Origin: a virus
Virus record (IMG/VR): IMGVR_UViG_3300035670_012130
Span: 42,126-106,125 of that record
Length of the DNA: 64,000 bases
Reading direction: 5' to 3' (one strand)
Position 1 is the stretch's first letter. The number at the start of each line of letters is the position of its first letter. The notes beneath the pieces were generated by a model. That model did no database searches, was not told where the DNA came from, and was given only the letters and a program-made list of their open reading frames with translations. Positions 2,125 through 42,598 of this stretch are shown here, piece after piece. The position numbers were made by a program, and so were the translations under genes.

Positions 2125-2146
2125 TAAAAATAAGTATAATGTAAAT

Positions 2147-21898: not shown

Positions 21899-21903
21899 AT
21901 CTT

Positions 21904-24708
21904 ATGAAATTTGTATTCAATGATAGCTTGGCAACTTCTATGTCAGATGATAAAATAGATTCATCTGATGTTCGTTTTGTACCTAGTAGCATAATTATTG
22001 AGAAAAAAATTGTTACTTCAGCAACCATCAATACAATGGATGAATTGTTTGATGCTGTTAAAGGTTTTAAAAGTGAAGCAGAATTAGAAAGATTTATATC
22101 TTCCAATTCTGATGCTCAAGCATTATTGAAAGATCCTAAAAATCTTATTAAGTTTACAAAAAAAATGTCAGGCGCATTTGGTGGAAGCTCTAGTTCTGGT
22201 GCTTCTTCATCTGCCGATAGGATTCAAAGCACATTGCTAGGAGGAGCAGAACAAGTTGGACAACCAGCTGAAGCTTATGCTCCTTTCTTAGAATCTAAAG
22301 ATCAAATTATATCCAGACTTAAAGCATCAATGTCTGAAAAAGAAATTGGTGAAACTTTTGACAGATTAGAAAAGTTAATCCCATTCACTGAAGTTATCGG
22401 TTTACTTGAGTACTTAATACAGAAATCAAGATCTTGTTTTACTAGTGTTTCAGAGCTTATAAACTTTTTCGTTGAATATTATGGACAAAAGTTTCAGTAC
22501 GCTAGAGCTAAGAATATAATTGATTTAGCATGTGAATATCAGAAATTAAATCCTTCAGTTGATATTTTTTCTGTATTGAGAGATGCTGTTGCTGGAAATC
22601 AACCAAAAGTTGGTTTGGGATATTTATCAAAAGATCCTGAGTCTCAGTTGACTTTCAATAACCTTCTTGAATTAGCTCAATCTAATTTACCAGAACAATC
22701 AGAAGAAATTAGAAGAAGATACCAAGCAAGTAGAGATTCTTTGCGCATTCAACAACAAAAAGTCAATATGCAAAGAGCTATTTATGACATGATGAAGACT
22801 GAAGAAATGAATCTTCAGCTTACAAAAATGATCAAATTTTTGGGTCAATCTTTTGAGTTTTTACTGACACAACCAATGTATAGGGCTTTACGTGATATTT
22901 ATTATGACTTATCTGCATCTAAAATATTATTAAATCAAGCTTCAAGTATATTCTTGGGCGATACTTCTCCTGAAACTCAAAATTATTCACCTTTTGAAGA
23001 GCAACAACAAAGAGATGAAACATTTACTTCTATTCCTAACAAAAGACAACAATTCTCTGGATTAGAGCCAAAATTTCTCAAACTTGCAAGCCCTGAAGTT
23101 ACAAGACATATTTTTGCTCAAACAGCACCAACAACTCCTGTAGCAACTCAAGAACAGAAAAATCAAGCTAAAGTTTCATTGCAACAAATATATAATTCCG
23201 TTGGAATCAGCTCTAACAATGTTATAGAAAAGATAAAGAGCGGTTTGAGTGCATTTGGCAAAGATATCCAAGAAAAGTGGAGCCAAGAATTCATTCCAAA
23301 AATTATAGCTATTTATGATGCTATTAAGAATTTGATTAGCAAATTAATTAATTCTATTGGTTCTAAATCTTTCAATGCTGAAACAATATCTCAAGAATTC
23401 AATAAATTAATACAAGCAATTAGTGGCACTAGCCCAAATGCTACATTTGCAGAAACTATGAATTCGCCTTTAGCAACTGGAGTGTTAGGACCAGCTCCAG
23501 CTTTTGGAGCTGCTGGAGCAGCTATGGGTGTTAATTTAGTTTCCCCAAATAATGGAAGCCAAAGAAGATCTAGCTCAAGTTTTTCAAAAATGGCTCAAAG
23601 GACTCCTCAGCAAGGAACAACACGGCCTGGTGATGATAAAACCAAAGCTTATATGTTGAATGCATTAGGAATTATATCTTCAATAGGTACTTTTATTGTT
23701 GGTGCAATATTCGCTAAAGATGTAGTTGCTTCACTATTGAGAGATCCTAAAGAGTGGTCAACAATAGTCACAGGCGTAATAGCTCTTCTGCTTGGTTTTA
23801 AAAATAATGTAATTGAATTATTTATGCAACTTAATCTTGTGGGTGGGAATGCACCTCAAAGTGCTCAGTTTTTTGATAATGCTGGAAATTTGACAGCATT
23901 AGGTGCACAAAGAGCTGCAAACTTCCAGGAAGCTATGATTGCATTAGGAGTTTCTGACCAAGATGCAATGGCTTTGGGTAAGTTTAGGGTTCAAAAGACT
24001 TATCTTATGGAGCAATTATCTACTAAAGAAAGAAATCTTCAAGCTGCTGAAACACAAGCAGTTCAAGTAGGTGGAGGATCTCAGGTTAATACTGTAGGAG
24101 ATTTGCCACAAGATTTTCAAAACAAATTAAAAGATTTTTTAGATTTCACCACTAAAGTTGAAACACAATTCAAAGCAATTTTGAATATTTATAGAAATGC
24201 TATAAACAACAATATGCAAAATTTCAATGAAGTTCAAAAAACTCAAGCTATGGGTGAACTAGCAGAATTTCAAAAAGACTTGATAGAAGTACAGCAAAAA
24301 AAATCTCAATGGTCTAGCATGAAAAATATTGCAGGTCATATGATGAGAAAAAGAATTTTACTCCAAAAGCTCAAGCCTCTTGAAAAACAATTGGATACTA
24401 TGAAAAAATTAGGAATACCTATGGCTAATATCATAGCATCTCCAAACGGAATTCTTTCTCAAGTCAGCAGAATTAGAAATGAAGAACAACAAGCATTAGA
24501 TAAATTACGTAAAGAATATTATGAAAAAATGGAATTGTTGAAAAATCCTGACAAAATTGCACCTTTAGTAAAATTACCTACTGATACTGGAGTGACAAAA
24601 TTGCCGCAAAGTTCTGATCAATCAGAATCTAAGAATTCTCCGTTTGATTTACCTGAAGATTCTCAATTTAATCCTAATGAAGATAATTCTAAACTTGGAG
24701 AAAGATAA
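21904..24708 (+). CDS. Tape-measure candidate / virion protein with two membrane segments
   Basis: I chose the ATG at 21904, just after the zinc-ribbon gene, giving 934 aa. An upstream in-frame ATG at 21850 would overlap that gene. The protein is mainly helical with coiled-coil-like stretches (SEEIRRRYQASRDSLRIQQQ). A Ser/Gly-rich linker lies near residues 85-105 and an Ala/Gly-rich one near 530-550. Two hydrophobic segments fall at about 582-610 (LNALGIISSIGTFIVGAIFA) and 618-640 (TIVTGVIALLLGF). A long helical protein with membrane segments, placed shortly before the hub gene, fits a tail tape measure or a DNA-injection protein. The 1306-aa gene downstream is the competing candidate. Confidence 0.55.
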   Translation: MKFVFNDSLATSMSDDKIDSSDVRFVPSSIIIEKKIVTSATINTMDELFDAVKGFKSEAELERFISSNSDAQALLKDPKNLIKFTKKMSGAFGGSSSSGASSSADRIQSTLLGGAEQVGQPAEAYAPFLESKDQIISRLKASMSEKEIGETFDRLEKLIPFTEVIGLLEYLIQKSRSCFTSVSELINFFVEYYGQKFQYARAKNIIDLACEYQKLNPSVDIFSVLRDAVAGNQPKVGLGYLSKDPESQLTFNNLLELAQSNLPEQSEEIRRRYQASRDSLRIQQQKVNMQRAIYDMMKTEEMNLQLTKMIKFLGQSFEFLLTQPMYRALRDIYYDLSASKILLNQASSIFLGDTSPETQNYSPFEEQQQRDETFTSIPNKRQQFSGLEPKFLKLASPEVTRHIFAQTAPTTPVATQEQKNQAKVSLQQIYNSVGISSNNVIEKIKSGLSAFGKDIQEKWSQEFIPKIIAIYDAIKNLISKLINSIGSKSFNAETISQEFNKLIQAISGTSPNATFAETMNSPLATGVLGPAPAFGAAGAAMGVNLVSPNNGSQRRSSSSFSKMAQRTPQQGTTRPGDDKTKAYMLNALGIISSIGTFIVGAIFAKDVVASLLRDPKEWSTIVTGVIALLLGFKNNVIELFMQLNLVGGNAPQSAQFFDNAGNLTALGAQRAANFQEAMIALGVSDQDAMALGKFRVQKTYLMEQLSTKERNLQAAETQAVQVGGGSQVNTVGDLPQDFQNKLKDFLDFTTKVETQFKAILNIYRNAINNNMQNFNEVQKTQAMGELAEFQKDLIEVQQKKSQWSSMKNIAGHMMRKRILLQKLKPLEKQLDTMKKLGIPMANIIASPNGILSQVSRIRNEEQQALDKLRKEYYEKMELLKNPDKIAPLVKLPTDTGVTKLPQSSDQSESKNSPFDLPEDSQFNPNEDNSKLGER

Positions 24709-25371: not shown

Positions 25372-28300
25372 ATGCCAGATATTGATTTTATCGAATATGA
25401 TAAAATTTCAATTCAGTCAGATGCTTTTATTACATCTGCAGAATTAAATTGTTATTTTCAATATATACCATCTACAAAAGCTATTTCTTACAATATAAAG
25501 AAAGAGCTTCATACTGCTGGTACAACCACAGATCCTAACGATTATAAAATTCCAGATGTATCTGATAAAATTCTTCCAAGAAAACTTTACAGAATAAATC
25601 CTTTTCATTCAAATTATTCTGAAAATTTAGAACTAAATAAAGTCAATGTTGATCCAGATATCATATATCCTACAAAAATAAAAGAGCAAAAGCAAAAAAA
25701 TATCGATTATAGTGTTTTGGGACTAAATTCTGATCAAATAGAATTTATGATGGCTCTTCAAAATTTAAAATCTCTAAAGTCAGACGATTCTATAAAAAAA
25801 CTTGATATTGAACAATTTGAAGCAATTGATGAAATTGTATCTAATGGTTTTTTCCAATTATATCCAAGATATATGGAAATGCTTACTACAGTTGTATCAG
25901 GTGGTTTTAATCAATTTTTTGAAGACACAGAATCTACTGAGACAATAAATGAGAATGAAGCCCTTGTAAATGATGCTATCAAAAAACTCGGCCTCAATCC
26001 TTCTGAAGTTAGAGTAAAAAAAAAATTTGAAGTAAGGTCTGGTAATTCGAAAAAAGATGAAGTTAATGCGTATCTTCAAGATATATCTTTTTCTAACAAT
26101 GTTGCAAACAACACCAGATCTATAAACAATAATTCAGTATCTAATATAAATCAAATTAATTTACAAAACAATAACAAAATCGATATACAAGTTAGATCAT
26201 CTAGGGTTGTAAATAATCTTAATAGCATCAATAGTACAGATTTCAATTTTATTAATAATACAAATAGAACTGTTAGTCAGCTAGTCACAAACGTAAATAA
26301 ATTTTCTGAATCTGCAAAATTAGATTTTGATAATTTATTTAAATCTATGTTAAAGGACTTGAATCTTACTCCGAATATTGAAAACCAGTATTATAAAATT
26401 GTAAACCAACACAGCAAGAATTTGAGCGTAGAATTTAACAGAATTTTAAATCATTCTGAAAAAACTGTTTATGAGACTAATCTTAAGAATTTGTCATCTT
26501 CATACAATTTTTATAGACATATCGAAAATAGATACAGAGAATTTATCCAAAACTTGAATTTTTTCAATGATACGGTTCAGCAAATTAAACAAACTGAAAT
26601 AAACTTAAAGAATACTTATGAAAATATTCATAGGCACAGTGTGACGCATAAAAATAATCATTACAAAAATATTATTAATTTAACCAAAAATGTTAATTAT
26701 GAATACACTGCCAACGATTATGAATTTCAATATGCAGTTTTAAAGACAATAAAAAATAGCAATCAATATGTTGAAAATAAAATCTCAAAAATTAAGAATG
26801 ATTTAAATATTGCTCAACAAAATATTTCTTTTGTTCATCACAGAATGGTTCATATCCAAGAAAAAACAAGTAATTTTGTAGTAAAAGAAATAAAGAATGT
26901 TCTAAATAATACAGACTACATTGATGAATATTCTAATATTATTGTCAATAAAATAAGCAACATATCTAATAATCAGACAGTAAGAGCATTATTATCATTA
27001 GTCACTAATGAAGAACAATTGAGTAGTATTTACACAGTATTGAGGCAAAGCAATATCAATACTTCTAACATTAAGAATTTAGTTGATGTAATAAACTATT
27101 CTAAAAATAATAATTTTGAAATTACTAAAGTTTCAAGTTCCACAGTAGAGAACATCAAAAGTTTAGTAAGTCTTTCGAAAAATATTGTTGATTTAAATAA
27201 CACTGAAAATAAGATAATTCAGAATGTTGATAAGAATATTGTCAACAAATTATCTTCTATAAATGTCGAAGAGTTTAAATCTTTTGTAAATTTATCTGAA
27301 TCAAAATCTTTCACAAAAATAGCGCAAAGTTATAAAAATATTTCAAATGTTATAGAAAATCTAAATACAATTTCTATAAATCCAAAGATATCTTCAATTC
27401 GTGTTGATCAGAATAAAGTAGATAATTTTAATCAAACAATAAATCAATCTAATATTGGTTTTGTTGTTGAAAAGCTATCAAATTTTAACACGGAAAATAT
27501 TACAGAAAAAATTAATTTACTCAAGAATATCAACATCACACAAGATATTAAAAAAACTGAAAATTTTGTAAGAAAAATTACAAGATTGGCAAGATATAAT
27601 AATGTCAATAAAATTACAGAAAACATTGATGAAATAAGCAATTTACAAAGCAATGTCAACACTGCAGAATTTAAGACAGAAATCCAGAACTTAAAAAATC
27701 TTATCAATGTTTCCAAAAATGTAAATATTTCTAATATTGAAAATTTAAAAGTATCTGAATTAAATCTTGTTTCTGATAACATTGAAAAGTTGAGCAAAAT
27801 TAGTCAGATAAATAACCTAACTCAAGAACAAGTAAATGTTGTCAAGCAGATAAGTCAAATAGAAAATATTAACCAGATTAATAAAATTATTAATCTAACA
27901 AAAACCAATGATATTTCTAATATAAAGTTATCTAATGTCAACCAAATCACAGAAGTTGTTCAGAAGATTTCTAATATTGAAAATAAAGATTTACTAAAAG
28001 TTGTAAATCTAACTAAAACTGTTCAAGAAAGAAAAATTTATAATAGAATTTCAAATCTTGTAAAAAATGTTGAGATTCTGGATACTGTAAATGTCACTCA
28101 AGAAACTGCTCAAAATATCTCTAAAATTTCTAATACTAATAATATCAATCAGATTACTAAAGATTTGAATTTGATTTCGCAAAACTATCAGGAATTCAAG
28201 ACAAGTGTTCAGCAAATAAAGAATATTGCTCAAGTTAAAAATGTTGACCAAATAGTAAAGAATTTGAATTATGTAAACAATATAATTCAAGAAAACAATA

Positions 28301-29292
28301 TTGTCAATCGTGTCAGTAAAATTGACCAAAAAGATTTTATCACTGCCATAAACTTGAGTAAAAATTATATTCAATCGTTTAATAGATTTGAAAGTAAAAT
28401 TAGCAGCATCTCTCAAAGACAAAGAATAAGAGAAACTTTACAAGATATCAACATTACAAATAATGAGATAAATAATTCAACTGTTCAAATTACAAATAAA
28501 ACACAAAAAGTTCAATTGCAAGAGTTTATTCAGAATCTTAATTTGTTGGAGACTGAGAAAAATACAACTATCTTAAATCGTTTTAGTTTTGAGAGTAATA
28601 AAAATAATATTTCTAATTTATTTAATGAACTAAACCTGACACAACAAATCAAGCAAGAAAAGCGAACTGAAAGAGAATTTGCCCGTATATCTAAACGATT
28701 AGATAGGATGAATAAAGAAACTATCAAAGTCCAGGGTAATTCGTACAAAGTTGAACAAAATTTCTTCGATATGATGAATTTTTACAATGAGCAGAAAGTA
28801 ACAAAGACAAGTAAAGACAGAAAGGTGAATAATTTCTTTCAATTGTTGGATGTACTAAATGTTCAGAAAACCACTAACGAAAGAAAAGTTACTCAAAAAA
28901 TTCAGAAAATTGAACAAGTTCAAAACCGTATTGTAAATAACACTTCTCAGATCAAGATCGATGTTTACAAAGAAAAGAAAGATAATTATTACAAGGTAGA
29001 TAATCGTCAAACTTTCACCACAAACAATTATCATCAAGAGAAAGAAGAACAGAAAAAAACAGAAAAGATAGTTGAAAACAAAGTAGAGGAGTTGCTTGTC
29101 AAGAAAATTGAAAATGTAACAAATAATTTAGTGACTAATGTAATCACTAAAAATGAATTCAACACTATCAAAAAAGAAATAATCCAAGAAATTTACAACA
29201 TAGAAATGAAGACAGAAGAACGAATCAAAGAGCTGCGTAAAGAAACCCAGCAGACTGTACAAACTATGTTAGAAAGATTCTTAAGAAGTTAA
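25372..29292 (+). CDS. Asn-rich repetitive helical rod protein (1306 aa)
   Basis: After an ordinary N-terminal region (residues 1-240) the protein becomes extremely rich in Asn, Ile, Lys, Ser and Val, with few Gly, Pro or aromatic residues. Imperfect helical repeats recur from about residue 480 to 1020, for example INQINKIINLTKTNDISNIK and VDQIVKNLNYVNNIIQENNI. Hydrophobic residues fall every 3-4 positions with Asn at helix ends, suggesting a coiled coil or superhelical rod. The end is a charged coiled coil (TEERIKELRKETQQTVQTML). There is no membrane segment. It lies between the tape-measure candidate and the PKD giant. It could be a long tail rod, a whisker or the real tape measure. Confidence 0.6.
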   Translation: MPDIDFIEYDKISIQSDAFITSAELNCYFQYIPSTKAISYNIKKELHTAGTTTDPNDYKIPDVSDKILPRKLYRINPFHSNYSENLELNKVNVDPDIIYPTKIKEQKQKNIDYSVLGLNSDQIEFMMALQNLKSLKSDDSIKKLDIEQFEAIDEIVSNGFFQLYPRYMEMLTTVVSGGFNQFFEDTESTETINENEALVNDAIKKLGLNPSEVRVKKKFEVRSGNSKKDEVNAYLQDISFSNNVANNTRSINNNSVSNINQINLQNNNKIDIQVRSSRVVNNLNSINSTDFNFINNTNRTVSQLVTNVNKFSESAKLDFDNLFKSMLKDLNLTPNIENQYYKIVNQHSKNLSVEFNRILNHSEKTVYETNLKNLSSSYNFYRHIENRYREFIQNLNFFNDTVQQIKQTEINLKNTYENIHRHSVTHKNNHYKNIINLTKNVNYEYTANDYEFQYAVLKTIKNSNQYVENKISKIKNDLNIAQQNISFVHHRMVHIQEKTSNFVVKEIKNVLNNTDYIDEYSNIIVNKISNISNNQTVRALLSLVTNEEQLSSIYTVLRQSNINTSNIKNLVDVINYSKNNNFEITKVSSSTVENIKSLVSLSKNIVDLNNTENKIIQNVDKNIVNKLSSINVEEFKSFVNLSESKSFTKIAQSYKNISNVIENLNTISINPKISSIRVDQNKVDNFNQTINQSNIGFVVEKLSNFNTENITEKINLLKNINITQDIKKTENFVRKITRLARYNNVNKITENIDEISNLQSNVNTAEFKTEIQNLKNLINVSKNVNISNIENLKVSELNLVSDNIEKLSKISQINNLTQEQVNVVKQISQIENINQINKIINLTKTNDISNIKLSNVNQITEVVQKISNIENKDLLKVVNLTKTVQERKIYNRISNLVKNVEILDTVNVTQETAQNISKISNTNNINQITKDLNLISQNYQEFKTSVQQIKNIAQVKNVDQIVKNLNYVNNIIQENNIVNRVSKIDQKDFITAINLSKNYIQSFNRFESKISSISQRQRIRETLQDINITNNEINNSTVQITNKTQKVQLQEFIQNLNLLETEKNTTILNRFSFESNKNNISNLFNELNLTQQIKQEKRTEREFARISKRLDRMNKETIKVQGNSYKVEQNFFDMMNFYNEQKVTKTSKDRKVNNFFQLLDVLNVQKTTNERKVTQKIQKIEQVQNRIVNNTSQIKIDVYKEKKDNYYKVDNRQTFTTNNYHQEKEEQKKTEKIVENKVEELLVKKIENVTNNLVTNVITKNEFNTIKKEIIQEIYNIEMKTEERIKELRKETQQTVQTMLERFLRS

Positions 29293-29294
29293 AA

Positions 29295-32200
29295 ATGGCC
29301 ACTTATAAAATAGATAGATCAAGCAGTTTACAATCAACTGGTAAATTTAAATTTGATTATCAAATTAATGTAATTGGAGATGATTTATTTGCTGGATTTT
29401 CTAATATTTATAATACTATATCAGCTGGAGCATTTCCAAAGTTCACACTAAAAGGTACTACTTTTTCCTTGTATGTTGGCGATACACCACCAAATACTGT
29501 TGGTGGGGATGCTAAGCCAGAAGGACATCCCTGGGCAGACAGAGGAGGATTCTACGGGTTTGGAAATTTTTTAGATAGTGGAAGAAAATTATTAAAAATA
29601 CCAATAACATTTCAAATACAATGTGAAGGCGCTATTTTACTTCCAAATGGCTCTGCTGACAAAGATTATTATGAAACAATAATTTTGTATACTGAACCAT
29701 ATGATTTTATTAATAAACCAAATAAAAGTGCTTCTGGATCTATAGAAGGAGAATTTTTTGTAGGTTTAGGGACAAATGAATTTGTTGACATAGATGAATA
29801 TTATCCTTCAGAAAATTATTTTATAGGATCACCCGTATGTCCTGATAATGAAGATGAATTTTGGAAGAACAAAGATTTAACACAAGAAACTGTTAGACAA
29901 TGGCCTAAATATACGAGTTTGAACTGGTATGAATCAGTAGACCCAAAAACTAAATCATATGTTGGAATAAAAATAAAATTTACTAATCCAAAAGGGCAAT
30001 TAACAACATATACAAAAACTTTTTTGATACAAAATCCTTTATTATTAGATATAGAATCTCAAGATAAAAAATTTATTAATGCTTGGACGACAGTAAGCTC
30101 AAATTCAGGTTATATAAGTATATCAAGTAATATTCCTGTTGATTCTGGAGACCAAGATTTTGTCAAGAAAGAACATTCTCAATGTGATACACAAAATTAT
30201 AATTTGACTGCTTTTCCTGGAGCTTCTGCATCTGATAATCCAAAATGTACAGCCACAATAGATTTAGAGTCTGATCCTCCTAGAAAAGTAACCTTTGAGT
30301 CGAAAACTTTCGATTGGAATAATACACATACTGATCCATTGACTGCATATATAGTTGGTTTTAATTCAGATGGTAAAAACAGAAAAAAGTTTAGAAATAC
30401 AAACAGACTTATACCATTACCTACATATGCGACAATTACAACAAATTCTGGGAATGTTGGATTAATAGAACAAACATACAGATATAATTTTGGATCAATT
30501 CAAGTTAGAGAAGCTGATGGATTGTCAGCTTCTTCTAAAGTAATAGATTTTAATAATCAACAAAAATGGATTTATGGTTTAGTTGACACAGTAAAATCCA
30601 AAGAACCATTAGACGATTTGGAAAGCCCACCAAAAAACTACGATTTTCCTATTAAGTTTGTAAGATCAGCTGATGGCTGTTATGATATTAATGAAACCAA
30701 TAGAGAATTAACTTTAGATAAATATGATTTTCCAGGTTCGGTACCTTTGCCTTTAAGAGGTTGGAAATTCAACTCAATGTCTTTAACACAAAATAAAGAA
30801 TTTATCATTGAAGGCACTGGGAATGTTAGATTTTACAATGGGTCTAAAGGCGAACCTCATTTTTATGGAAATCAAAATCTTTCTGGATATAGATATTTAG
30901 AGATTGAATTAAAATCTTTGGGTCAATTGCAAAGTGGCAATTTGATAATTACAGAAACATCAAAAGGTCCAACATTACAATCAAGTTCAAAAATCGAATC
31001 TACTAAATCTTTTAAAATACAAACAGACTCATCTACATACAAAACATTACGAATTGATCTATGTAATCCTGACAACAAGATAGATAATGTTGATAATCAA
31101 GATTCACCTTACCCAAGACTTAATACATACACTACATCTAAGCCACAAACTACTAGTCCATTTGGATATTTATCTAAAGAAAACAATCCAAAAGACAATT
31201 TTATAATAACCAAGCCTAATATTAATTCTGAATCATTAAATTGGATCACTGATGATATAAAACAAAAAATTAAGAATTCTGGAATTGTGTATCTTACCGA
31301 TTCCAATGATAATACTGTAGATTATTTTGAAGTAAATACAAGTGCATTTCCAAAAACTGGAATTGGTACCAATGTCATATTTGGCAAACCAAGGGTCAAC
31401 AATGGCAAAATTAAATTAGCAAAACCTTGGAATGGAAATATACCAGATATTTCTCGTAAAGAATTATTTGTCTATATAGTAAAAAATGACCTTACAAATG
31501 GCAAAACAATAGATGATTTATTAAATCGAAGTTCTGATGGCACTTATCCTGATGAATTTGAAGTATATGACTTTGACCCAGGTTTACCAGATATTTCAGA
31601 AGTAGTTTCTAAGACAACTTTTGATTTTACCGATGGTGCTGGAATTATTTATATAAATCCAATACCTTCTTATGAAAACAATCAAATAACACCTTATGAT
31701 GGAATTGAAGTTGAAGATAAAACTAAAAACTTAGTAAAATCATACAAAATTGTCGATTATGTAAATGATATTGCAAATACTGGAAAAGCTTATTTTACAG
31801 TACAAATTCCTAATGATTACAATACAAATAACAAGTTTTCTATAGGTTCAACAATAAAATTAAAATTTTTAGATAATTTTTCAGATGACAGATTCAATAG
31901 TATAATTGTGAAATTTAATAAAGTAGAAAAATATCAAAATTTTTACAGAGCACAAATTGAGTATGCTAAGTTAGACAAAAATAGCCCACCTGATTATGAA
32001 GGCATACCAAAACTCAAGAACAATCAAACTTTCATTTTATCAGCAAATGCACCAATCATTACAGTCAAGCCAGTAAGACTAGTAGAAAAAACTTTCCCAA
32101 TTAGTACTATCTTAAATACTAACTTGATTGCAAATTCACCATCTGGTCCCGAAATTAATGCTATTGATGATGCTCCTGAAGATGAAGCTTCTAACGGTCC

Positions 32201-35200
32201 TTATTATGGTATTTCTAGAATATCAAAAATTGAAATTGATAATGAACAATTGGTATTGGGACAGGCAAAATTAATTCGAAATAATTCTTTGAGTAACTTT
32301 GTCGCATCTGGAAACAATAATACTTTTGTTGAAAAAACCAAATACCAAGCTTCAAGCACATCTGAAACTCAGTATTACACAAGAAGATTTTGGCAACAAA
32401 ACACTGATGGAAGGGATGAAGAAGAAGGCGATATAACTTGGCAAAATATTATCACATCTAATTTAGATTACTGGACTTTGTCTCCAAAATCTATATCAGG
32501 TTTGTGTGATGATATTACAAAGATTGATTCTTATGTCAATCCAAGGTGGTTAGATCCAAATAATTCTGAAGCAAAAATTATAAGACATCCAGGATGGCAA
32601 GCTAAAAAATTTGATAAAAGCTATCCTACAGATCCAATTACTGGAAATAGAATATATGGAAATAAGTTAGATCCAGAATATTTAAATTCAGATACAGGCT
32701 ATGCTACTTGGGTTTATGGTAATGGACTTTTAGCATTGCCTAGTGGTAAAAACAGTGGCTCTGGAACTTCATATGTCAATGCAATAAATATTTCTTTTAA
32801 TGATTTACAAACAATTTTAGCACAAACTATCTTCCATAGAATTAATGGAAATTTTCCACCAGGTAAACCAGATTTATTTGGGAATTCTTCTTTAAGAAAT
32901 GAAGATGGAACAGTTCAAGAATCTACATTGCATTTGCGTGGGGGTTTTATTGCAAGAGGACCAGGATATGGACTAATCCTACCTCCTCAAAAAAGTACCG
33001 CTGACAACTTAAGAAAAGCAAACTTAATTGAAGTTTCATCAAAACTAAATAAAGGATCATCTGAATCTGATGCAAAGGGTTATTTTGAAACTGGTTCTGT
33101 TTATGGGAAAAATAAAATTGACCATTATATAGAATTAGAAAAGTCCAAAAACTTTACAACGCCATCGGATTTTAGAAGTTCTACACGAAATTTTTCTCAA
33201 GCAAAAAGAGAACGAGCAGCTTATAAGGGTGGAAAACAAAGTGTTGCTACAAATATTTCTGCTTGTGAATCAGGTTTTGAAAAATCTATAGTAATAGCAT
33301 ATACCATCCCTACTACAAAGCCTGGTGAAGAAAATCAAACAGCAATCATTCAAACTGATTCATTCTTCACTCAACAATATGAAAAGTATCCTGTTGGATA
33401 TAATACAATTACTGGTTCTGGAGTAACAATCAAGGGTGAATTTCCATTTGTATTAGGCTCAGAAACGCATATAAATCAAGCATTTAGAGTAAATACTTTT
33501 TTATTGACTGAAAGAAACTCAAATACAAAAGCTACAAGTTCTCACGATTACGAATCCTTAATTGCTGCAAATACCGATATGAGAAATAAACTTTCTTGGT
33601 ATCCATTTATTGACGGACAATCAAAGATAGATGCAAATTTTTCTACTCTATCGAAAGCTTTTAAGGGAACGAAATATAATTCTTATGCAATTTCAGATCA
33701 AGCCCCTCAATTATTTAATGTAGGTTATGCTGATCCTGGTGCAATTGTTTTTAGATCAATCTCTTTAAGTACCACTAATATTAATGCTCCAGTCACTGAT
33801 AAAACAATTTTTATTGATGGTGTTGCTCCAACATATATTTCTGATTTTAGATTGATAGAACCAATCACATCATCTGGAATTGCATATTCATCATTTCCAA
33901 CAGTGGCACAAATATCTTCTAGAGAATATATTGTCGCTTATTCAATGAATGCAAATCCAAGGCAGATTAATTTTAAGATAATTTCAAATTATCAAGCACA
34001 AAATAAAAATACGCTTTTTGATTTGGATGCTCTTACTGGAAATACTCTGTCTGACCAATATAATATCTATGGATTAACTTCTGATTATGATGAAAGATTA
34101 GGATTACATAGATCAGTATTTTGGTGCAATGGTGGAATTTATTATTTTGAATATGCACTTTCATCTAGTAATTTGGGGCAAAAAAGATCTGATAAATTAC
34201 ATCTAATTAAAGGTAAGTTAGATGAAGCTCTAGTTACAGAATTAAGTAACAGAAACAATATTGTCACTTATTATGATGCTAATAGTGAACTCAACGCTGA
34301 AGTGCCCAAACAAAAACCTGCCTTAATTACTTGCAAAAAACAAGAGTATAATGGAAAAGTTTTTGTAGCTTATGATACGGGCAAATGTTATATAGAAGCA
34401 GTTTTATTTCATCCTTTTTCAAAGATATTAGGTACTAGAAAGTTTGACATTGAATGTGTTAATGATTCAGGTTCAAATTTAAAAGATACAACCCCAATAG
34501 CAGATATTCAAGCAGATCCTACAAGCGGACAATCAGCATTATTAGTAAACTTTTTGTCAACAAATTCGTATGATCCTGGTGGTAGTACTCTTACTTATGC
34601 TTGGAACTTTGGTGATGAAACTCAATCTACTGAAGAAAATCCATCACATACTTTTGTAAATAATACAACAACACCAATTGAATTCAAGGTAACTCTTATC
34701 GTTACGAACACAAGTGGTGTAAGTAGTGATCCAGCTACAATCACAATTACAGTAAATCCAGCTCCAGTAAATAATCTTTCTCCACAAGCTAAATTTTCTG
34801 CAACACCTACTTCTGGGGATGTAATCTTAACTGTTTCATTCTCAGACCAATCTAACCCAGCAAACGATGGTTCTTTCATACAGATATATGAATGGGATTT
34901 TGGAGATGGAAACACAGCAATCAAATTTGATAACGTGCCATTTACCTATGATTACACAAAAGTAGGTTCATTCACTCCAACTCTTTTTGTCAAAGATAAT
35001 TTAGCAAGATTGTCAAGCAAATATTTTGGTCCTACAATCAATGTGAATGGTGTACCTAACAATCCACCATCACCAGATTTTAAGTGGGCTCAAACATCAT
35101 TTACACCAACATTAAAAGTGCAGTTTACGGACACTTCTAGTGATGTTGAAGGTTCTTTAGTTGCTTGGCATTGGGATTTTGGAGATAGTCAAACCGCCGA

Positions 35201-38200
35201 TGTGCAGAATCCAGAGCACATATATGCTTCTGCTGGCACATATCTAGTAGTTCTTACTGTGACAGATTCTGGAGGATTGAAAGAATCAGTTGCAATTCAA
35301 ATTACTGTAGTTCCACCAGGTAATAATCCACCTATAGCTAACTTCTCATTTTCACAACAGAATAGAAAATTGGTTATTGACTTTGTTGATACGTCTTTAG
35401 ATACAGATGGAACAATAACTACTTGGAATTGGAATTTTGGTGATAATTCTACTGACACTGTGCAAAATCCATCTCACACTTATTTGTCAGCTGGAACATA
35501 TCAAGTTACTCTTACGGTCACTGACAATGGCGGAAAATCAGGTTCTATAACAAAAAATGTAATTGTCAATCCATTAATTAATCAATCACCAACTATTTCA
35601 AATATTACAGGTACCCAGACAAGCTTCAAACCTTTAATTGGTAAATTTACTGAAACATCTTCTGACCCTGATGGATTTATAACTAAATGGGATTGGAATT
35701 TTGGAGATGGTCATACATTCTCAACTACAGATTCTGCGCTCAAGAATCCATCAAATACTTATTTATTCCCGGGCACATATACAGTTTCTTTAACAGTTAC
35801 TGATGATGGCTTGCCTGATGGAACAAATAAAAAAACTGCAACTTCATCAATTCAATTTGTTGTTGAACCACCTCCAGCTAATCAACCACCTGTAGCTTTG
35901 TTTACAGTTGATGCTAATAATGTTTTGGCGCCAGCAACAATCTTGTTTACAGATCTGTCTACTGATTCAGACGGGCAAATAATAAGTTGGCTTTGGGAGT
36001 TTGAGTCTGGAAGCACTTTATTCTACAATTCTCAAACATATCAGAAAACCGTATCTCATACTTTCACAAGATCAGGTACTTATCCAATTAGATTGACTGT
36101 AACCGATGATGGCAATTTAAAGAACACATATATTTTAGATGTAGTAGTTAAAAATAATGCTCCGGTTGCAATAATTTCAGCTTTTCCAAATCCAGTATTG
36201 TCTAAAACCCAAGTAAATTTCTTTGGAAATACTTCTTATGATTCTGACGGAAATATCACAAAATATGCTTGGAACTTTGGTGATGGTACAGTTATATCTC
36301 AAGGAAGAACAACTGAATCTCATACATATCTTAAACCAGGAACATATCAAGCTTCACTAACTGTCACTGATAATACAGGCGACAGTTCAACAGCCAATTT
36401 GTTGATCAATGTTGCTAATAGAAATCCTGTAGCGAGAATAACTTACACCACTTTGACTGTAAAAGCACCAGGAAGTCTAACATTCAACGGAGATACTTCC
36501 ACAGACGAAGATGGAATAATAGCTTCTTATAGTTGGAGTGTAGCTGGTTCCGTTGTTGCATCAACTCCTAACACAACAATCAATTTTGCTACAGAAGGGA
36601 CATATGTAGTTTCCCTCACTGTAACTGATGATTTTGGCGCTACTAACACTTCAAGCTTTTCAGTTAGTGTTACCCCACCTGACAATATACTACCACTTGC
36701 TGTTCTTTCAGTAGATAAAAATTCTGGAGTGATAAATGATACATTTGTTTTTAATGTATCGGAATCAAGAGACCCAGACGGTTCTATCATTTTGTATCAA
36801 TTGGATTTTGGTGATGGCACTTCTACACAGTTTGTAAATTCTGCACCAATTTCTCACGTTTATAAAACAGTAGGTTCTTACACAGCTAAATTAACTGTAA
36901 CTGACAATAGGAATGGAATCAGCTTAGAAACTACCAATTCTATCAAAATTATCACTATCAATAATCAACCTCCTGTAGCAAGTTTTTCATATAGTCCTGT
37001 AGGCGCATTTACATTTGATCCTATTACATTCACAGATAATTCAAGTGATCCAGAAAATGCTTTATCTAGATGGTCCTGGGATTATGGCGATGGAACTAAT
37101 TTTACAACCACCGATCCATTGCAAAAAAACCCAACCAAGTCTTACAATAAAGGCAACAGAAATTACACTGTATCTCTTACTGTGTATGATAACTTTGGAT
37201 TATCAAATACAATATCTCAAATTGTAAGCATAAATAATAGAAAACCATTTGCTGTAATTTCAACTAACAGCACCCCAAGAAATAATGTAATTACAGGTAT
37301 TGCTCCATTCACTGTAATATTTGATTCAAATTCTTATGATCTTGATGGCACAGTTGTAAATTATGAATGGTATATAAATGGTTTAGTAGGAACACCTTTT
37401 ACTACCAAATCTTTCACTTATACTTTCAGTACAGCAAGATTCACTCCATATTCTGTGACATTAAGAGTACAAGATGATGATGGTGTTTGGAGTGACTTGA
37501 CCAATATTGGTGTGAAAGTAAATGCTCCAAACGTTCCACCAGTTGCAGTTATATCAGCGAACCCTCAATCAAATACAAGTTTTGCTCCGATTTCTGTAAC
37601 TTTCTCTGCTGCTGGAAGTTATGATCCTGATAATATCGGAGGACCATTAATTTATTCTTGGGATTTTGGAAATGGAAATGTTTCAGATCAAACTATTGCT
37701 GCAACAACTTATAATAATCCAGGAACATACAAAGTTTATCTTACTGTTACAGATAATTTAGGTGCAACAAATACTGCAACTCTTGATTATATTGTCAAAA
37801 ATAATAAACCAGTGGCATTATTGGATACATTACCATCTGGAATAGTATCAATAAGAGTAAACACACCTATAGTTTTTACTTCTTCTGGAAGTTATGATTC
37901 TGATGCAAATCAATTCATCAATGGATATAAATGGCTGAAAGATGGTATCAATCAAAATTCTAATACTCCAACTTTTGAAACATCATTTGATAGTATAGGC
38001 AATCACACAATTACTTTAAGTGTGTTTGATAATTTAGGTTTGGAATCTAATACAGTTAACAAAACTATATTTGTATTCCAAGATCCTGCACCTCCACCAC
38101 CAAATCAAAACCCAATAGCAATACTAGGAAATGAGCCTAGTGTTTCAGGATACATTGAACTTAAGGTAGGAGACAGTTTTACTTTCAATGGCTCTAATTC

Positions 38201-39680
38201 TTATGACCCAGAAGATGGATCAGATATAACATTTGAATGGTCAATTGATGGTGTAAAGTCAGGATACAATTCAACTTTTGTCAATAAATTTAATACAATT
38301 GGAATATTTGCTGTAAGTTTGGTTGTTTATGATACGCAAAAATTATCTTCAACTCCGGCAACTAATTTAGGAAATAGATATTCTGTAAATGTAAATGTTT
38401 CTGCTGCTCAAAATCCTTTAGCAAATAAATTATTCTCATCAGGACAAGCGTTAAATGGAGCGATAGCAAGTGGTTCTAATACACCAAATAGATATGGTTT
38501 TGAACTAGTTGATGATACAAAACAATACACTATAATTGAAAGTGGTCTTTACCATACATTTGCTGTTGATGTAGATGGAAAACTTTATGCAAGTGGGTCA
38601 AATAGTAATGGTCAACTTGGTTTCCCATCAAATATTACTCAATTAAATTCTTTGACTTTAGTACCTTTAGCATCCAAATACAAAGTCATCAAAGTTTCTG
38701 CTGGAGATTATTGCTCGGCTATAATTGTAGAAGATACAACTATTAGCAAAAGAGTTTTATTGGTTTGTGGTTCTAATATAAATGGAATTTTTGGTCAAGC
38801 ATTACCAAAAACAAATATATATAGTTTTCAGCCTATTATTGAAAGAGGTTATAATTTTATCGGACCAAGTTACACATCAAATAATGGCTTACTTGATGTA
38901 TCTTGCAATTCTTATATTCTTGCCTTTACTGATAATAAACAAGTATGGGTAGCTGGAAATCATGGATATACAAACAAAAATGGAATAGTTGATACTGGCT
39001 TTTTCCCTATTAATATAGATCCTAATCCAGATTTGCAACTTGTAAGTACAAATTATCTCAACCCATTCAAATTAGAAGTTGGATTTAATAATGAGTCAGG
39101 TTTTGTAACTGGACTTGGATACGATATTGATAGTCAAATAGTATGGTTCTCAGGATTATCTACTTTGAGAGGTTGGGGATATGCTTATGATATATCAACA
39201 TATGAAAATAGCATTGTAGTGATTACAGCATCACAAGATCCATATTATGATCACGCAATTTACCTGTATTTCTTTTCATCAAGTGAAGTTCCTCAATTTA
39301 ACGTTAGCGCAGGATTAGCATCTGACTTAAATCCTGGTGAAAATTTCTTAAGAGTATCAACGGGTAAATTTGGATATTTAGCTTTATCTGAAAGACTTTT
39401 TTATCCTTATGGTCTTAATGATTTTGGACAACTCGGATATGTTCAATCGGTTTCAAGCTCAAATTCTTTAAATTTACAATATGGTCATGGCTCTGGAATA
39501 GTTCTGCCTAATATGAGTGTAAAAGAAATATCTGATATTTCTGCTGGTGGAAATCATTCAATAATCTTAGCATCTAATGTAAGACCATCATCATATTCAT
39601 TTACAATCACTAAACCAGGTGGATATGCTACAGATCCTCAATATCCAACTGCTTATCCAATTAATCAAATAGCCCAGTAA
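29295..39680 (+). CDS. Giant adhesin-like virion protein: 14 PKD domains plus RCC1-type propeller
   Basis: This 3461-aa protein has three parts. Residues 1 to about 1730 form a large beta-rich N-terminal region without a recognised family. Residues about 1732-3037 hold 14 tandem PKD (Ig-like) domains of about 93 aa. Most show WNFGDG-type cores and GTYxVxLTVTD strands. Domains 8, 11, 13 and 14 lack the FGDG core but keep the strand pattern. Residues about 3045-3430 contain RCC1-type blades such as YHTFAVDVDGKLYASGSNSN followed by GQLG, then SAGDYCSAIIVE, then LNDFGQLGY and SAGGNHSIILAS. PKD arrays usually form stiff stalks and propellers bind ligands. The likely role is a long fibre reaching the host surface. 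Confidence 0.8.
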   Translation: MATYKIDRSSSLQSTGKFKFDYQINVIGDDLFAGFSNIYNTISAGAFPKFTLKGTTFSLYVGDTPPNTVGGDAKPEGHPWADRGGFYGFGNFLDSGRKLLKIPITFQIQCEGAILLPNGSADKDYYETIILYTEPYDFINKPNKSASGSIEGEFFVGLGTNEFVDIDEYYPSENYFIGSPVCPDNEDEFWKNKDLTQETVRQWPKYTSLNWYESVDPKTKSYVGIKIKFTNPKGQLTTYTKTFLIQNPLLLDIESQDKKFINAWTTVSSNSGYISISSNIPVDSGDQDFVKKEHSQCDTQNYNLTAFPGASASDNPKCTATIDLESDPPRKVTFESKTFDWNNTHTDPLTAYIVGFNSDGKNRKKFRNTNRLIPLPTYATITTNSGNVGLIEQTYRYNFGSIQVREADGLSASSKVIDFNNQQKWIYGLVDTVKSKEPLDDLESPPKNYDFPIKFVRSADGCYDINETNRELTLDKYDFPGSVPLPLRGWKFNSMSLTQNKEFIIEGTGNVRFYNGSKGEPHFYGNQNLSGYRYLEIELKSLGQLQSGNLIITETSKGPTLQSSSKIESTKSFKIQTDSSTYKTLRIDLCNPDNKIDNVDNQDSPYPRLNTYTTSKPQTTSPFGYLSKENNPKDNFIITKPNINSESLNWITDDIKQKIKNSGIVYLTDSNDNTVDYFEVNTSAFPKTGIGTNVIFGKPRVNNGKIKLAKPWNGNIPDISRKELFVYIVKNDLTNGKTIDDLLNRSSDGTYPDEFEVYDFDPGLPDISEVVSKTTFDFTDGAGIIYINPIPSYENNQITPYDGIEVEDKTKNLVKSYKIVDYVNDIANTGKAYFTVQIPNDYNTNNKFSIGSTIKLKFLDNFSDDRFNSIIVKFNKVEKYQNFYRAQIEYAKLDKNSPPDYEGIPKLKNNQTFILSANAPIITVKPVRLVEKTFPISTILNTNLIANSPSGPEINAIDDAPEDEASNGPYYGISRISKIEIDNEQLVLGQAKLIRNNSLSNFVASGNNNTFVEKTKYQASSTSETQYYTRRFWQQNTDGRDEEEGDITWQNIITSNLDYWTLSPKSISGLCDDITKIDSYVNPRWLDPNNSEAKIIRHPGWQAKKFDKSYPTDPITGNRIYGNKLDPEYLNSDTGYATWVYGNGLLALPSGKNSGSGTSYVNAINISFNDLQTILAQTIFHRINGNFPPGKPDLFGNSSLRNEDGTVQESTLHLRGGFIARGPGYGLILPPQKSTADNLRKANLIEVSSKLNKGSSESDAKGYFETGSVYGKNKIDHYIELEKSKNFTTPSDFRSSTRNFSQAKRERAAYKGGKQSVATNISACESGFEKSIVIAYTIPTTKPGEENQTAIIQTDSFFTQQYEKYPVGYNTITGSGVTIKGEFPFVLGSETHINQAFRVNTFLLTERNSNTKATSSHDYESLIAANTDMRNKLSWYPFIDGQSKIDANFSTLSKAFKGTKYNSYAISDQAPQLFNVGYADPGAIVFRSISLSTTNINAPVTDKTIFIDGVAPTYISDFRLIEPITSSGIAYSSFPTVAQISSREYIVAYSMNANPRQINFKIISNYQAQNKNTLFDLDALTGNTLSDQYNIYGLTSDYDERLGLHRSVFWCNGGIYYFEYALSSSNLGQKRSDKLHLIKGKLDEALVTELSNRNNIVTYYDANSELNAEVPKQKPALITCKKQEYNGKVFVAYDTGKCYIEAVLFHPFSKILGTRKFDIECVNDSGSNLKDTTPIADIQADPTSGQSALLVNFLSTNSYDPGGSTLTYAWNFGDETQSTEENPSHTFVNNTTTPIEFKVTLIVTNTSGVSSDPATITITVNPAPVNNLSPQAKFSATPTSGDVILTVSFSDQSNPANDGSFIQIYEWDFGDGNTAIKFDNVPFTYDYTKVGSFTPTLFVKDNLARLSSKYFGPTINVNGVPNNPPSPDFKWAQTSFTPTLKVQFTDTSSDVEGSLVAWHWDFGDSQTADVQNPEHIYASAGTYLVVLTVTDSGGLKESVAIQITVVPPGNNPPIANFSFSQQNRKLVIDFVDTSLDTDGTITTWNWNFGDNSTDTVQNPSHTYLSAGTYQVTLTVTDNGGKSGSITKNVIVNPLINQSPTISNITGTQTSFKPLIGKFTETSSDPDGFITKWDWNFGDGHTFSTTDSALKNPSNTYLFPGTYTVSLTVTDDGLPDGTNKKTATSSIQFVVEPPPANQPPVALFTVDANNVLAPATILFTDLSTDSDGQIISWLWEFESGSTLFYNSQTYQKTVSHTFTRSGTYPIRLTVTDDGNLKNTYILDVVVKNNAPVAIISAFPNPVLSKTQVNFFGNTSYDSDGNITKYAWNFGDGTVISQGRTTESHTYLKPGTYQASLTVTDNTGDSSTANLLINVANRNPVARITYTTLTVKAPGSLTFNGDTSTDEDGIIASYSWSVAGSVVASTPNTTINFATEGTYVVSLTVTDDFGATNTSSFSVSVTPPDNILPLAVLSVDKNSGVINDTFVFNVSESRDPDGSIILYQLDFGDGTSTQFVNSAPISHVYKTVGSYTAKLTVTDNRNGISLETTNSIKIITINNQPPVASFSYSPVGAFTFDPITFTDNSSDPENALSRWSWDYGDGTNFTTTDPLQKNPTKSYNKGNRNYTVSLTVYDNFGLSNTISQIVSINNRKPFAVISTNSTPRNNVITGIAPFTVIFDSNSYDLDGTVVNYEWYINGLVGTPFTTKSFTYTFSTARFTPYSVTLRVQDDDGVWSDLTNIGVKVNAPNVPPVAVISANPQSNTSFAPISVTFSAAGSYDPDNIGGPLIYSWDFGNGNVSDQTIAATTYNNPGTYKVYLTVTDNLGATNTATLDYIVKNNKPVALLDTLPSGIVSIRVNTPIVFTSSGSYDSDANQFINGYKWLKDGINQNSNTPTFETSFDSIGNHTITLSVFDNLGLESNTVNKTIFVFQDPAPPPPNQNPIAILGNEPSVSGYIELKVGDSFTFNGSNSYDPEDGSDITFEWSIDGVKSGYNSTFVNKFNTIGIFAVSLVVYDTQKLSSTPATNLGNRYSVNVNVSAAQNPLANKLFSSGQALNGAIASGSNTPNRYGFELVDDTKQYTIIESGLYHTFAVDVDGKLYASGSNSNGQLGFPSNITQLNSLTLVPLASKYKVIKVSAGDYCSAIIVEDTTISKRVLLVCGSNINGIFGQALPKTNIYSFQPIIERGYNFIGPSYTSNNGLLDVSCNSYILAFTDNKQVWVAGNHGYTNKNGIVDTGFFPINIDPNPDLQLVSTNYLNPFKLEVGFNNESGFVTGLGYDIDSQIVWFSGLSTLRGWGYAYDISTYENSIVVITASQDPYYDHAIYLYFFSSSEVPQFNVSAGLASDLNPGENFLRVSTGKFGYLALSERLFYPYGLNDFGQLGYVQSVSSSNSLNLQYGHGSGIVLPNMSVKEISDISAGGNHSIILASNVRPSSYSFTITKPGGYATDPQYPTAYPINQIAQ
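34490..38410 (+). repeat. Tandem array of 14 PKD-domain coding repeats
   Basis: About 14 units of roughly 280 bp each encode PKD domains separated by Pro/Asn linkers such as NNPPSP, NQPPVA and NRNPVA. The units differ clearly at sequence level, so this is an old, diverged array and not a recent duplication. WxFGDG-type cores sit near 34600, 34890, 35170, 35430, 35690, 36000, 36270, 36800, 37080 and 37660. Confidence 0.85.
38430..39590 (+). repeat. RCC1-type beta-propeller blades at the C-terminus of the PKD giant
   Basis: At least five RCC1-like repeats are visible. Typical pieces are ASGSNSNGQLG, VCGSNINGIFGQ, VWVAGNHGY, YGLNDFGQLGY and ISAGGNHSIILA. A seven-bladed propeller would fit the length of about 385 aa. 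It caps the PKD stalk, a likely receptor-binding position. Confidence 0.75.
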
Positions 39681-39715: not shown

Positions 39716-42598
39716 ATGAACCTTTCCCCAGACCCAAGACAACTAAAAACAAAAGTCACTTTGAGTATTATGAATGCTCCTGAAAGTGGATTTTTTTCTG
39801 GGGAATATACTGCTAGTACTGCTACAAAGTCACAAGACAACTTAAATGTTTTGAATTATGATTTTGAACCAACTTATACTTATGCAGATGGCACAACAGA
39901 ACCAAAATATAGTAGCAGATTAAAGGTAATTTCTTCTTTACAAAATGCTAGAATTCCAGAGATCAATACAGCTATAAGTGCATCATCTTGTACATTTGCA
40001 TTTGGTGCTATTGTTCCCGGAGAAGTGGATCCTGTGCTAAATAAGTTGAAAGGTCCAGCAGAAGGATATAACCCAAATTTTGTTGATAGTCCAATTCAAG
40101 GTAGTGTGCAGTCACAACCTGAAAAATTTGATGATTTTACTCAACACGTACCTAAAATTCCATTTACTAATAATGGAAATGTATTAACTACTTACAATAT
40201 TTGGCATTTAGTTGATGGTGCCAGGGATGCATATAAATATATAGGACCAGCTATCTCTGGAGTAAATACTGGCACTCTAAGAACTGTTAAAGATCCTGTC
40301 AATGGTGCGCAAGTTGAAGTTACTTCTGAGAAAACGAATACAACAATCAAAAGAATTTTTCCTACTTCTTATGACGCTGTTTATCAAAATGATGCTGTAA
40401 TTTACAATCCTGATGGTACTTCAGAGCCTATAAAAGCAAGAGGAAACTATGGCAATAATGGTTTTCATATTAACTTTTCAGCAAGCAATATGCAACAAAA
40501 TTCTTCAGCCATAAAAATCGCAATAAGACCACAAGTTGCAAATAATAATTATATCAATGATTTTTTTATTGAATTTAAAATAGATAGCAAGCCTGTTTTA
40601 AAAATATTTGATCCATATAGCCAGTCTTACATAGTTCAAACAGATTTGATAGCTCCTGTTTTAGACAAGACTAATATGAATTCTTATGACGTGTATGTAC
40701 ATTTTGTTGGGCCAAATCTGTTAGTTGGTTTTAGTCCAGACATTACAAGATGGAATACAGTTATCAATTTAAGTGGCAGAGAAGTGTTTTGCCCACCTTT
40801 AACTGATATTTTTATATCCTTGTCAAATACTAATGTGAAGTTCAGATATTCTGCAATAATTTTTAATAATTTCAATAATAATCAGCCCAAAAATTCAACT
40901 AAAAATTATATAACAGCAGAATTTAAATATTCAAAGAAAAAAATTCCAACAATCTCAACATTTCTAGAAAAAGTTCAAGATTCTTTCGAAAAATCATCAT
41001 ATAGAATAAATGGCTTTCCACAAAACACTGGATATAATTCTGCCAACCCATTAGATAAAAATATTTCATATTTTGCAGATTTGCGCTTAAATCAAGCCCA
41101 ATTTGCAAAAATAACTGAATATACAACACCACCTCTGACAAGTGCAGATCCTGATAAACAAACCCTTTATTTCAAAATTAGATATAATTGTACGATTGAA
41201 GGTCCAGCATTTTTACAAATTGAAATTCCACATCCAGGAGTATTAGCAACGGTATTTCCTGATTTGGGAAGTGGCAGTGCAAACGCAGGTGATTATAAAT
41301 TTATCAATCCTCAGCTGAATCAATTGTTTTACGATGTGGGAGACATAACATCTTGGGTCGAAAGTTGGTCTGTAAACTGCACAGCAGAGCTTTCCAATTT
41401 ATCAAAAATTAGTAAAACTGCAAACATTGTCTTAAAAAATATTGATTCTTTAGAAGGTCAAAAGTTTATCAACGCAATTGAAAATAACTTGTTGTGTGTA
41501 TCTATAGACGCAGGTTATGTACAGGGTAATTTGTATCCATACTTTCAAGGTTTTATCACAAGCACATCATATTCTAGGAAAGGTAACGATAGTACATTTA
41601 CCTTAACTTGCCAAGATATAGCATCTTTTGTTTTAGAGAATTTATATTTTGATAAAAATATGATGATAGCTGGTATGAGACATGACTTAGCAATTGATTC
41701 TATAATGGCTACTTCAGGATTTTGGTCATACTATATAAGAAATAATTCTGATTTACAAAATGGAGGTTCAATTTATGGAATTGATTTAAGATTGAATAGT
41801 AATTCAACAAATAATCAAGATCTTATAAAATTAAATCCTCTTGATAAGATTTATGAAAAATTAGGTAAGCTTTTAGAAAGATTGAATAATCCTTATTCTC
41901 TTCCAACATTCAGATGGGCGGAAAGATATGGGTTTAAATTAGAATGTAGAAACAACTATATAGATAATGATTTGAAATTTACTGGATTAAATGCAGCTGG
42001 CACAGCTTACATTTTTAACAGTAACGCATCAAACACAAATAATTATATAAATAATTTTCAATCAGATATACACGGCTTACTTGTTGATGATTACACAATT
42101 AAAACAGATGTTAAAGGCCTTGCTGCAGGAGTTAGAGTTTTTGGCACAGCTATGACTGGTTTTTTAGCTGACGAAAGATATTCTCCAGGATCTGTATCTA
42201 TTCAAAATTTACCAATCCAATCTCAAATAGATTTATTGGGATATTTGCAAAATGCTCCATTCAATTCAGCACAAGCTCCTTATGTTGGGTTCAAGAAATA
42301 TTTGATGTGGTCTATGCAAAGAAATGAAATTCCTGATCAGCAAGTGCTAAAGAGAGTTACAGATAGTATAGAGTTAGTTTCTAAAACACCAATAAGTTCA
42401 ATTAATTTCCAGTGCTATGTTGCTAAGCCCCTAAGTTTTCACGGTAAATTTTTGATTAATGTTTTCCAAGGGCAGACAGTTAATTCAACTGATCAATATG
42501 TATATACAAATGTTGATTACAGTTATAATAAATCCAACAATCTTATCACAGCAAGCGTTCAGGGAACTAACATGCCAATATCATTAGGAGGAGTATAA
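39716..42598 (+). CDS. Baseplate hub-like protein (gpD/gp27-type)
   Basis: In this 960-aa protein the second half has the features of tail hub proteins. DVGDITSWVESWSVNCTAEL and ISKTANIVLKNID mark the first hub barrel. LYPYFQGFITSTSYSRKGND and STFTLTCQDIASFVLENLYF resemble the 'G.I.s.s.s..g...tl.c.D' region of gpD and gp27. An N-terminal extension of about 500 residues is beta-rich and could carry additional trimer contacts. No lysozyme or peptidase domain is evident. Hub proteins sit at the tail tip between tube and puncturing device. Being preceded by tape-measure candidates supports this. Confidence 0.65.
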   Translation: MNLSPDPRQLKTKVTLSIMNAPESGFFSGEYTASTATKSQDNLNVLNYDFEPTYTYADGTTEPKYSSRLKVISSLQNARIPEINTAISASSCTFAFGAIVPGEVDPVLNKLKGPAEGYNPNFVDSPIQGSVQSQPEKFDDFTQHVPKIPFTNNGNVLTTYNIWHLVDGARDAYKYIGPAISGVNTGTLRTVKDPVNGAQVEVTSEKTNTTIKRIFPTSYDAVYQNDAVIYNPDGTSEPIKARGNYGNNGFHINFSASNMQQNSSAIKIAIRPQVANNNYINDFFIEFKIDSKPVLKIFDPYSQSYIVQTDLIAPVLDKTNMNSYDVYVHFVGPNLLVGFSPDITRWNTVINLSGREVFCPPLTDIFISLSNTNVKFRYSAIIFNNFNNNQPKNSTKNYITAEFKYSKKKIPTISTFLEKVQDSFEKSSYRINGFPQNTGYNSANPLDKNISYFADLRLNQAQFAKITEYTTPPLTSADPDKQTLYFKIRYNCTIEGPAFLQIEIPHPGVLATVFPDLGSGSANAGDYKFINPQLNQLFYDVGDITSWVESWSVNCTAELSNLSKISKTANIVLKNIDSLEGQKFINAIENNLLCVSIDAGYVQGNLYPYFQGFITSTSYSRKGNDSTFTLTCQDIASFVLENLYFDKNMMIAGMRHDLAIDSIMATSGFWSYYIRNNSDLQNGGSIYGIDLRLNSNSTNNQDLIKLNPLDKIYEKLGKLLERLNNPYSLPTFRWAERYGFKLECRNNYIDNDLKFTGLNAAGTAYIFNSNASNTNNYINNFQSDIHGLLVDDYTIKTDVKGLAAGVRVFGTAMTGFLADERYSPGSVSIQNLPIQSQIDLLGYLQNAPFNSAQAPYVGFKKYLMWSMQRNEIPDQQVLKRVTDSIELVSKTPISSINFQCYVAKPLSFHGKFLINVFQGQTVNSTDQYVYTNVDYSYNKSNNLITASVQGTNMPISLGGV

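Follow-up and report, generated by a model that had tools for sequence, protein, structure and literature searches.

A 3461-residue phage protein with a variable head, a PKD rod of fixed length and an RCC1-like propeller: a possible tail arm docked by its propeller

Phages of one clade encode a giant protein composed of a variable N-terminal head, 14 PKD domains in an array and, at the C-terminus, a seven-bladed RCC1-like propeller. Based on domain searches, structure prediction and comparison of relatives, we give about even chances to the view that this protein forms a structural arm on the tail or baseplate, in which the head would serve recognition and the propeller mostly docking.

Results

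A single intact gene in a clade of phages

We analysed a stretch of 64,000 nucleotides (hereafter the window) from a linear, 106-kb IMG/VR record (IMGVR_UViG_3300035670_012130, positions 42,126 to 106,125). The gene under study (29295-39680, + strand) is a single unbroken frame with an ATG start, encoding 3461 amino acids (aa) followed by a stop codon; complete homologues have 3461-3479 aa. The record also encodes TerL, a portal protein, a head protease and a sliding clamp, and the genes for the first three of these lie upstream of the 3461-aa gene, in support of the phage origin assumed in an earlier note on this DNA. Among the 15 best listed matches, TerL showed no more than 26.8% identity to that of any phage; one of these matches is from a 485-kb uncultured phage.

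The same protein, whole or partial, is encoded on nine other IMG/VR contigs of one phage clade. L018 covers the later part only, L012 breaks off inside the propeller, and L017 and L019 are identical over the gene. Because the contigs bearing relatives are up to 358 kb long, the clade probably consists of large-genome phages. The dN/dS ratio was below 1 in all segments and 0.06-0.16 throughout in the three closest pairs; among more distant pairs it peaked in the head and, for L020, in blades 5-7 of the propeller. With synonymous sites near saturation, these ratios indicate constraint and nothing finer, and comparisons of rate rest on amino-acid identity. They indicate that the gene is under purifying selection. 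A chance open reading frame or an assembly artefact was ruled out by this selection and by the intact frame in many contigs.

Fourteen PKD domains form an array of fixed length

The PKD array occupies 34491-38353 (+ strand; aa 1733-3019). PKD_4 (PF18911) matched above its curated cut-off in 14 stretches (E=2.2e-168, 547 bits). The 14 single matches span 34491-38351, 11 of them above the 27-bit cut-off and three at 21-23 bits. Employing an HMM made from the window's own PKD units, we found exactly 14 units in the window and in every relative covering the array. The array is 1287 aa long in the window and in five of the seven distinct relatives that cover it, 1286 aa in L012 and 1279 aa in L021, so that a rod of constant length, with 14 units in all seven, was borne out.

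Mean identity among the PKD units is 30%, yet the best match of a unit was the unit at the same position for 13 of the 14 in L021, the most distant relative, and for all 14 in L017 and L012. This pattern indicates that the array is old and that its unit number has been maintained. PKD arrays are usually exposed spacers. The present one would act as a long spacer whose length is fixed and which, at full extension, would reach about 50 nm (our own estimate, at 3.5-4 nm per domain). When the array was searched against phage records, one human-gut phage record matched, without RCC1.

The C-terminal domain resembles RCC1 propellers

Downstream of the array lies a seven-bladed RCC1-like propeller (38430-39584, + strand; aa ~3046-3430), followed by a variable C-terminal tail (39585-39677, + strand; aa 3431-3461). 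The earlier note had described 14 PKD units capped by an RCC1-type propeller and proposed a domain search for both families and structure prediction as checks. Both families were found above cut-off: RCC1 (PF00415) scored 41 bits against a cut-off of 21.7 (E=2.6e-10), and RCC1_2 (PF13540) also exceeded its cut-off. WD40_RLD (PF25390) scored 71.7 bits, under its cut-off of 150. The single-repeat model PF00415 recognised only two RCC1 repeats in the frame, the others being degenerate. The name RCC1 is used here for sequence and fold and implies neither the Ran exchange nor the chromatin binding of cellular RCC1.

An AlphaFold model of the C-terminal 465 aa, made with seven aligned homologues (pTM 0.60, mean pLDDT 56), contained strand groups for seven blades. 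With this model, Foldseek retrieved whole RCC1-like domains, those of RPGR (best, E=5e-15), HERC2, UVR8 and RCC1, and also listed many viral RCC1 propellers, including those of tailed phages. In this medium-confidence model a strand at aa ~3057-3059 and the last strands (~3412-3426) are placed as if closing the ring, as read from the strand list rather than from coordinates. Pfam, the own-unit HMM and AlphaFold/Foldseek thus confirmed both the 14 PKD units and the RCC1-type propeller in the 3461-aa protein. The picture of a PKD stalk capped by a propeller was right in its two parts but omitted the 1732-aa N-terminal region.

The N-terminal head is the most variable part of the protein

The head (aa 1-1732) makes up half of the protein. 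It begins with a short stretch (29295-29360, + strand; aa 1-22) that is better conserved than what follows, continues with a variable part that is the likely recognition module (29361-32444, + strand; aa 23-1050; 26-60% mean pairwise identity by segment), and ends with a part that is conserved in the alignment and has no recognised fold (32445-34490, + strand; aa 1051-1732). Mean all-pair identity is 65% in aa 1-22, 26% in aa 23-145 (the lowest in the protein), 58% in aa 146-215, 40% in aa 216-440, 56-60% in aa 441-1020, 72% in aa 1021-1400 and 70% in aa 1401-1732. It is 72% in the PKD array, 70-81% in blades 1-5, 50-55% in blades 6-7 (aa 3298-3405) and 57% in the C-terminal tail.

Searches of PDB and Pfam gave no useful match to the head, and a fold search with its low-confidence model (pTM 0.38), which we left unused, gave no significant match. 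A second propeller was suspected at the end of the head (aa ~1300-1730), but sequence searches gave no support for it. In tblastn searches of 50,697 phage records, neither the head nor the propeller had a match at 1e-5; at an E-limit of 10, the propeller had weak matches alone, mostly to records annotated as RCC1. Profile searches of genome contigs with head and propeller gave no match, scans with the L021 versions found L021 itself alone, and no paralogue of either was seen in the searched stretches of the same contig.

Between the window's subgroup and other lineages, identity is 31-39% in aa 1-350 and ~50-57% in aa 351-1050; the PKD array is 72-82% identical within the clade. Over aa 1-1050, the clade-mate L015 and the distant L021 are equally far from the window (36/54/57% and 35/53/57% identity, respectively, in successive parts), whereas in the PKD array L015 shows 78% identity to the window and L021 55%. 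In a tree of aa 1-700, L017 and L021 were grouped with support of 100/100; they were not grouped in the tree of PKD array plus propeller, which does not reject such a grouping (p-AU 0.37) and whose rooting is open. The equal distance of L015 and L021 and the difference between the trees suggest that the heads are alleles which diverged long ago, and have probably been exchanged, on a scaffold that is conserved, like phage recognition modules. Saturation in a fast-evolving head is an alternative explanation for part of the pattern. Blades 6-7 show a similar pattern at a smaller scale: together with the C-terminal tail, they fall into three types distinct from one another and from that of the window's group.

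A variable module on a conserved scaffold is also found in phage receptor-binding proteins and tail fibres. In tail fibres the main variable module would be expected at the C-terminal, distal end, whereas here it is N-terminal and a smaller one is C-terminal.

The gene lies among giant structural genes

Directly downstream, wherever contigs reach, is a gene for a baseplate-hub-like protein of 960 aa (39716-42598, + strand), assigned by synteny and by a single local match over 87 aa to phrog_196 (E=2.5e-7), on which the hub label rests. The order of genes for 952 aa, 214 aa, 1306 aa, the 3461-aa protein, the hub-like protein and 1221 aa was identical wherever contigs reach. The position just before a hub gene, pointed out in the earlier note, is therefore part of a conserved order among giant structural genes, with "hub" meaning this one 87-aa match. 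Fibre-like and hub-like genes surround the 3461-aa gene. The 3461-aa protein itself had no PHROG match at E<=0.01, decoration PHROGs included, and neither the hub-like gene nor one upstream gene had a match in the 50,697 phage records.

The gene always found directly upstream (25372-29292, + strand) encodes an Asn-rich 1306-aa protein, by eye a long helical or coiled-coil protein, without a PHROG match and 83-89% conserved within the clade. Further upstream, a 952-aa protein without Pfam or PHROG match (21850-24708, + strand) is variable (47-77% identity); the genes just before it show 88-96%. Downstream, three giant genes (47519-51871, 51871-54837 and 60199-63999, + strand) match the same "head decoration/virion structural" PHROGs, and the last of them a tail fibre PHROG too; perhaps they have a domain common to several fibre-like proteins. 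The window also carries genes for sugar-nucleotide/glycan modification (578-3696, + strand: a TPP enzyme, two NAD epimerases and an FkbM methyltransferase), and another gene of this kind, for an aminotransferase (L047:5877-7190), lies upstream in the contig.

Comparison with known phage RCC1 and PKD proteins

RCC1 propellers likewise occur in the tailed phages GAP32, W70, phAPEC6, LIBA6276, Jenst, SP-15 and S-SRM01. GAP32 Gp1 and three RCC1 proteins of W70 have been detected in virions by mass spectrometry (PMC5259590, PMC11370258), and phAPEC6 encodes eleven RCC1 proteins (PMC7247149). The published guesses are that such proteins order DNA in the head (PMC11370258, PMC7247149). In LIBA6276, SP-15 and S-SRM01, the RCC1 genes are beside or near tail-fibre or baseplate genes; in Jenst, the RCC1 gene lies in a stretch bounded by a virion structural gene and the endolysin gene. 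"Chromosome condensation" RCC1 proteins of four unrelated named phages (L051, L052, L053 and L054) adjoin tail-fibre, baseplate or other structural genes.

The known phage RCC1 proteins that we scanned have 344-1627 aa, compared to 3461 aa here. A Pfam scan found no PKD match in four RCC1-bearing phage proteins, PKD_4 was absent from the genomes of GAP32, LIBA6276, SP-15 and S-SRM01, and none of the seven phage records searched had both families. A text search of the literature joining RCC1, PKD, phage and tail fiber returned no paper. The combination had been called unusual; none of the examined set had both, but RCC1 proteins by themselves are common in phage tail modules and have been detected in virions. 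An RCC1 propeller joined to 14 PKD units appeared in the present clade alone, in a small survey whose pattern-based searches extend no further than close relatives.

Rods of PKD or other Ig-like domains projecting from the virion are likewise seen in T4 Hoc and Hoc-like proteins. These have at most three Ig-like domains and are bound to the capsid, without a propeller or a large variable head; the combination of few Ig-like domains, a capsid-binding domain and a family match that marks them was not found here, where there are 14 PKD domains and a propeller. A PKD fold has been described within a phage receptor-binding protein of the Bacillus phages Deep-Blue and Vp4 (PMC11406892); this baseplate protein has a single PKD-like domain in ~900 aa and a different C-terminal domain. 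The BACON/PKD/Ig-like adhesins of gut phages are likewise modular and include PKD or other Ig-like domains, and some of these proteins raise adhesion when displayed on another phage; in the part of the source consulted, they are described without an RCC1 propeller and as binding mammalian epithelium and mucus (PMC13370021).

Discussion

A rod of several tens of nanometres and the adjoining hub-like gene fit a large tailed phage in which the protein is a structural arm on the tail or baseplate. We propose that such an arm would be carried in the virion and attached near the hub. The N-terminal head of ~1000 residues would be its main recognition or adhesion module and would contact the bacterial surface, presumably by binding a receptor; the 14 PKD domains would be the spacer of fixed length, and the RCC1 propeller would mostly serve as a platform for docking, at the virion-proximal end or close to it, with the variable sector of blades 6-7 as a second surface, specific for a partner or ligand. 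The head is favoured as the recognition end since variation is concentrated in it, whereas the PKD array and blades 1-5 are conserved. In its complete form, an inverted arm with the propeller docked, the PKD rod setting the reach and head alleles exchanged between phage lineages, the proposal is a tentative one that we would not put at even chances.

Most phage fibres are anchored by their N-terminus. The N-terminal end might accordingly be anchored in the baseplate, with the PKD array directed outward and the RCC1 propeller binding the receptor at the tip. This orientation, the long-range receptor fibre of the earlier note, agrees with the usual polarity and with the contrast between the first 22 residues (65% identity) and the next 120 (26%), since an N-terminal anchor should be the better conserved; in its favour, too, the C-terminal tail and blades 6-7 vary (50-57%), and RCC1 genes adjoin tail-fibre genes in other phages. 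However, the head varies most, the fastest-changing domain is not expected as an anchor, and few parts of the protein are as conserved as blades 1-5. With the propeller conserved and the head changing fast, we consider a propeller-out orientation somewhat unlikely. What stands of the fibre idea is an arm of constant rod length beside a hub-like gene; the propeller as its tip is doubtful. T4 Hoc, in which the capsid-binding domain does not contain the N-terminus, is an exception to the usual polarity (PMC11821841), so an Ig-like arm could be held by its other end.

Alternatively, the protein could be a surface decoration or whisker on the capsid or tail sheath for loose adhesion to cells or surfaces, comparable to T4 Hoc or to the hairs on the tail of phage CBB, rather than a dedicated receptor fibre. 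Decoration proteins typically contain PKD/Ig-like rods (PMC11821841, PMC13370021), a jumbo phage has hairs of ~119 nm (PMC5259590), and several giant genes nearby match head-decoration PHROGs. The constant position directly before the hub-like gene, the lack of a decoration PHROG match in the protein and its size, far larger than that of Hoc-like proteins, make this improbable. An internal baseplate scaffold, with head and rod buried and the variation reflecting co-evolution with variable structural proteins rather than host recognition, would suit the adjoining hub-like gene and the second variable structural gene nearby (21850-24708), but is very improbable, because identity in that gene does not track the head (in L013, 47% versus 70% in aa 1-350), other neighbours are conserved and arrays of this kind are generally exposed.

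Returning to the arm with a docked propeller, its types of parts are known from phages, but an adhesion arm that unites them, with a rod of constant length and a head that changes fast, looks new. That the count of PKD units is so strictly kept suggests selection on reach, in the manner of a ruler. The position in tail modules suggests that some phage RCC1 proteins have a role other than DNA ordering, and their annotation as DNA-condensation proteins deserves a second look. If the proposal is true, phage RCC1 propellers that currently carry a "chromosome condensation" annotation would have a likely role in tail-arm modules, and the clade would offer head alleles that vary naturally while the scaffold stays constant, usable to test host recognition.
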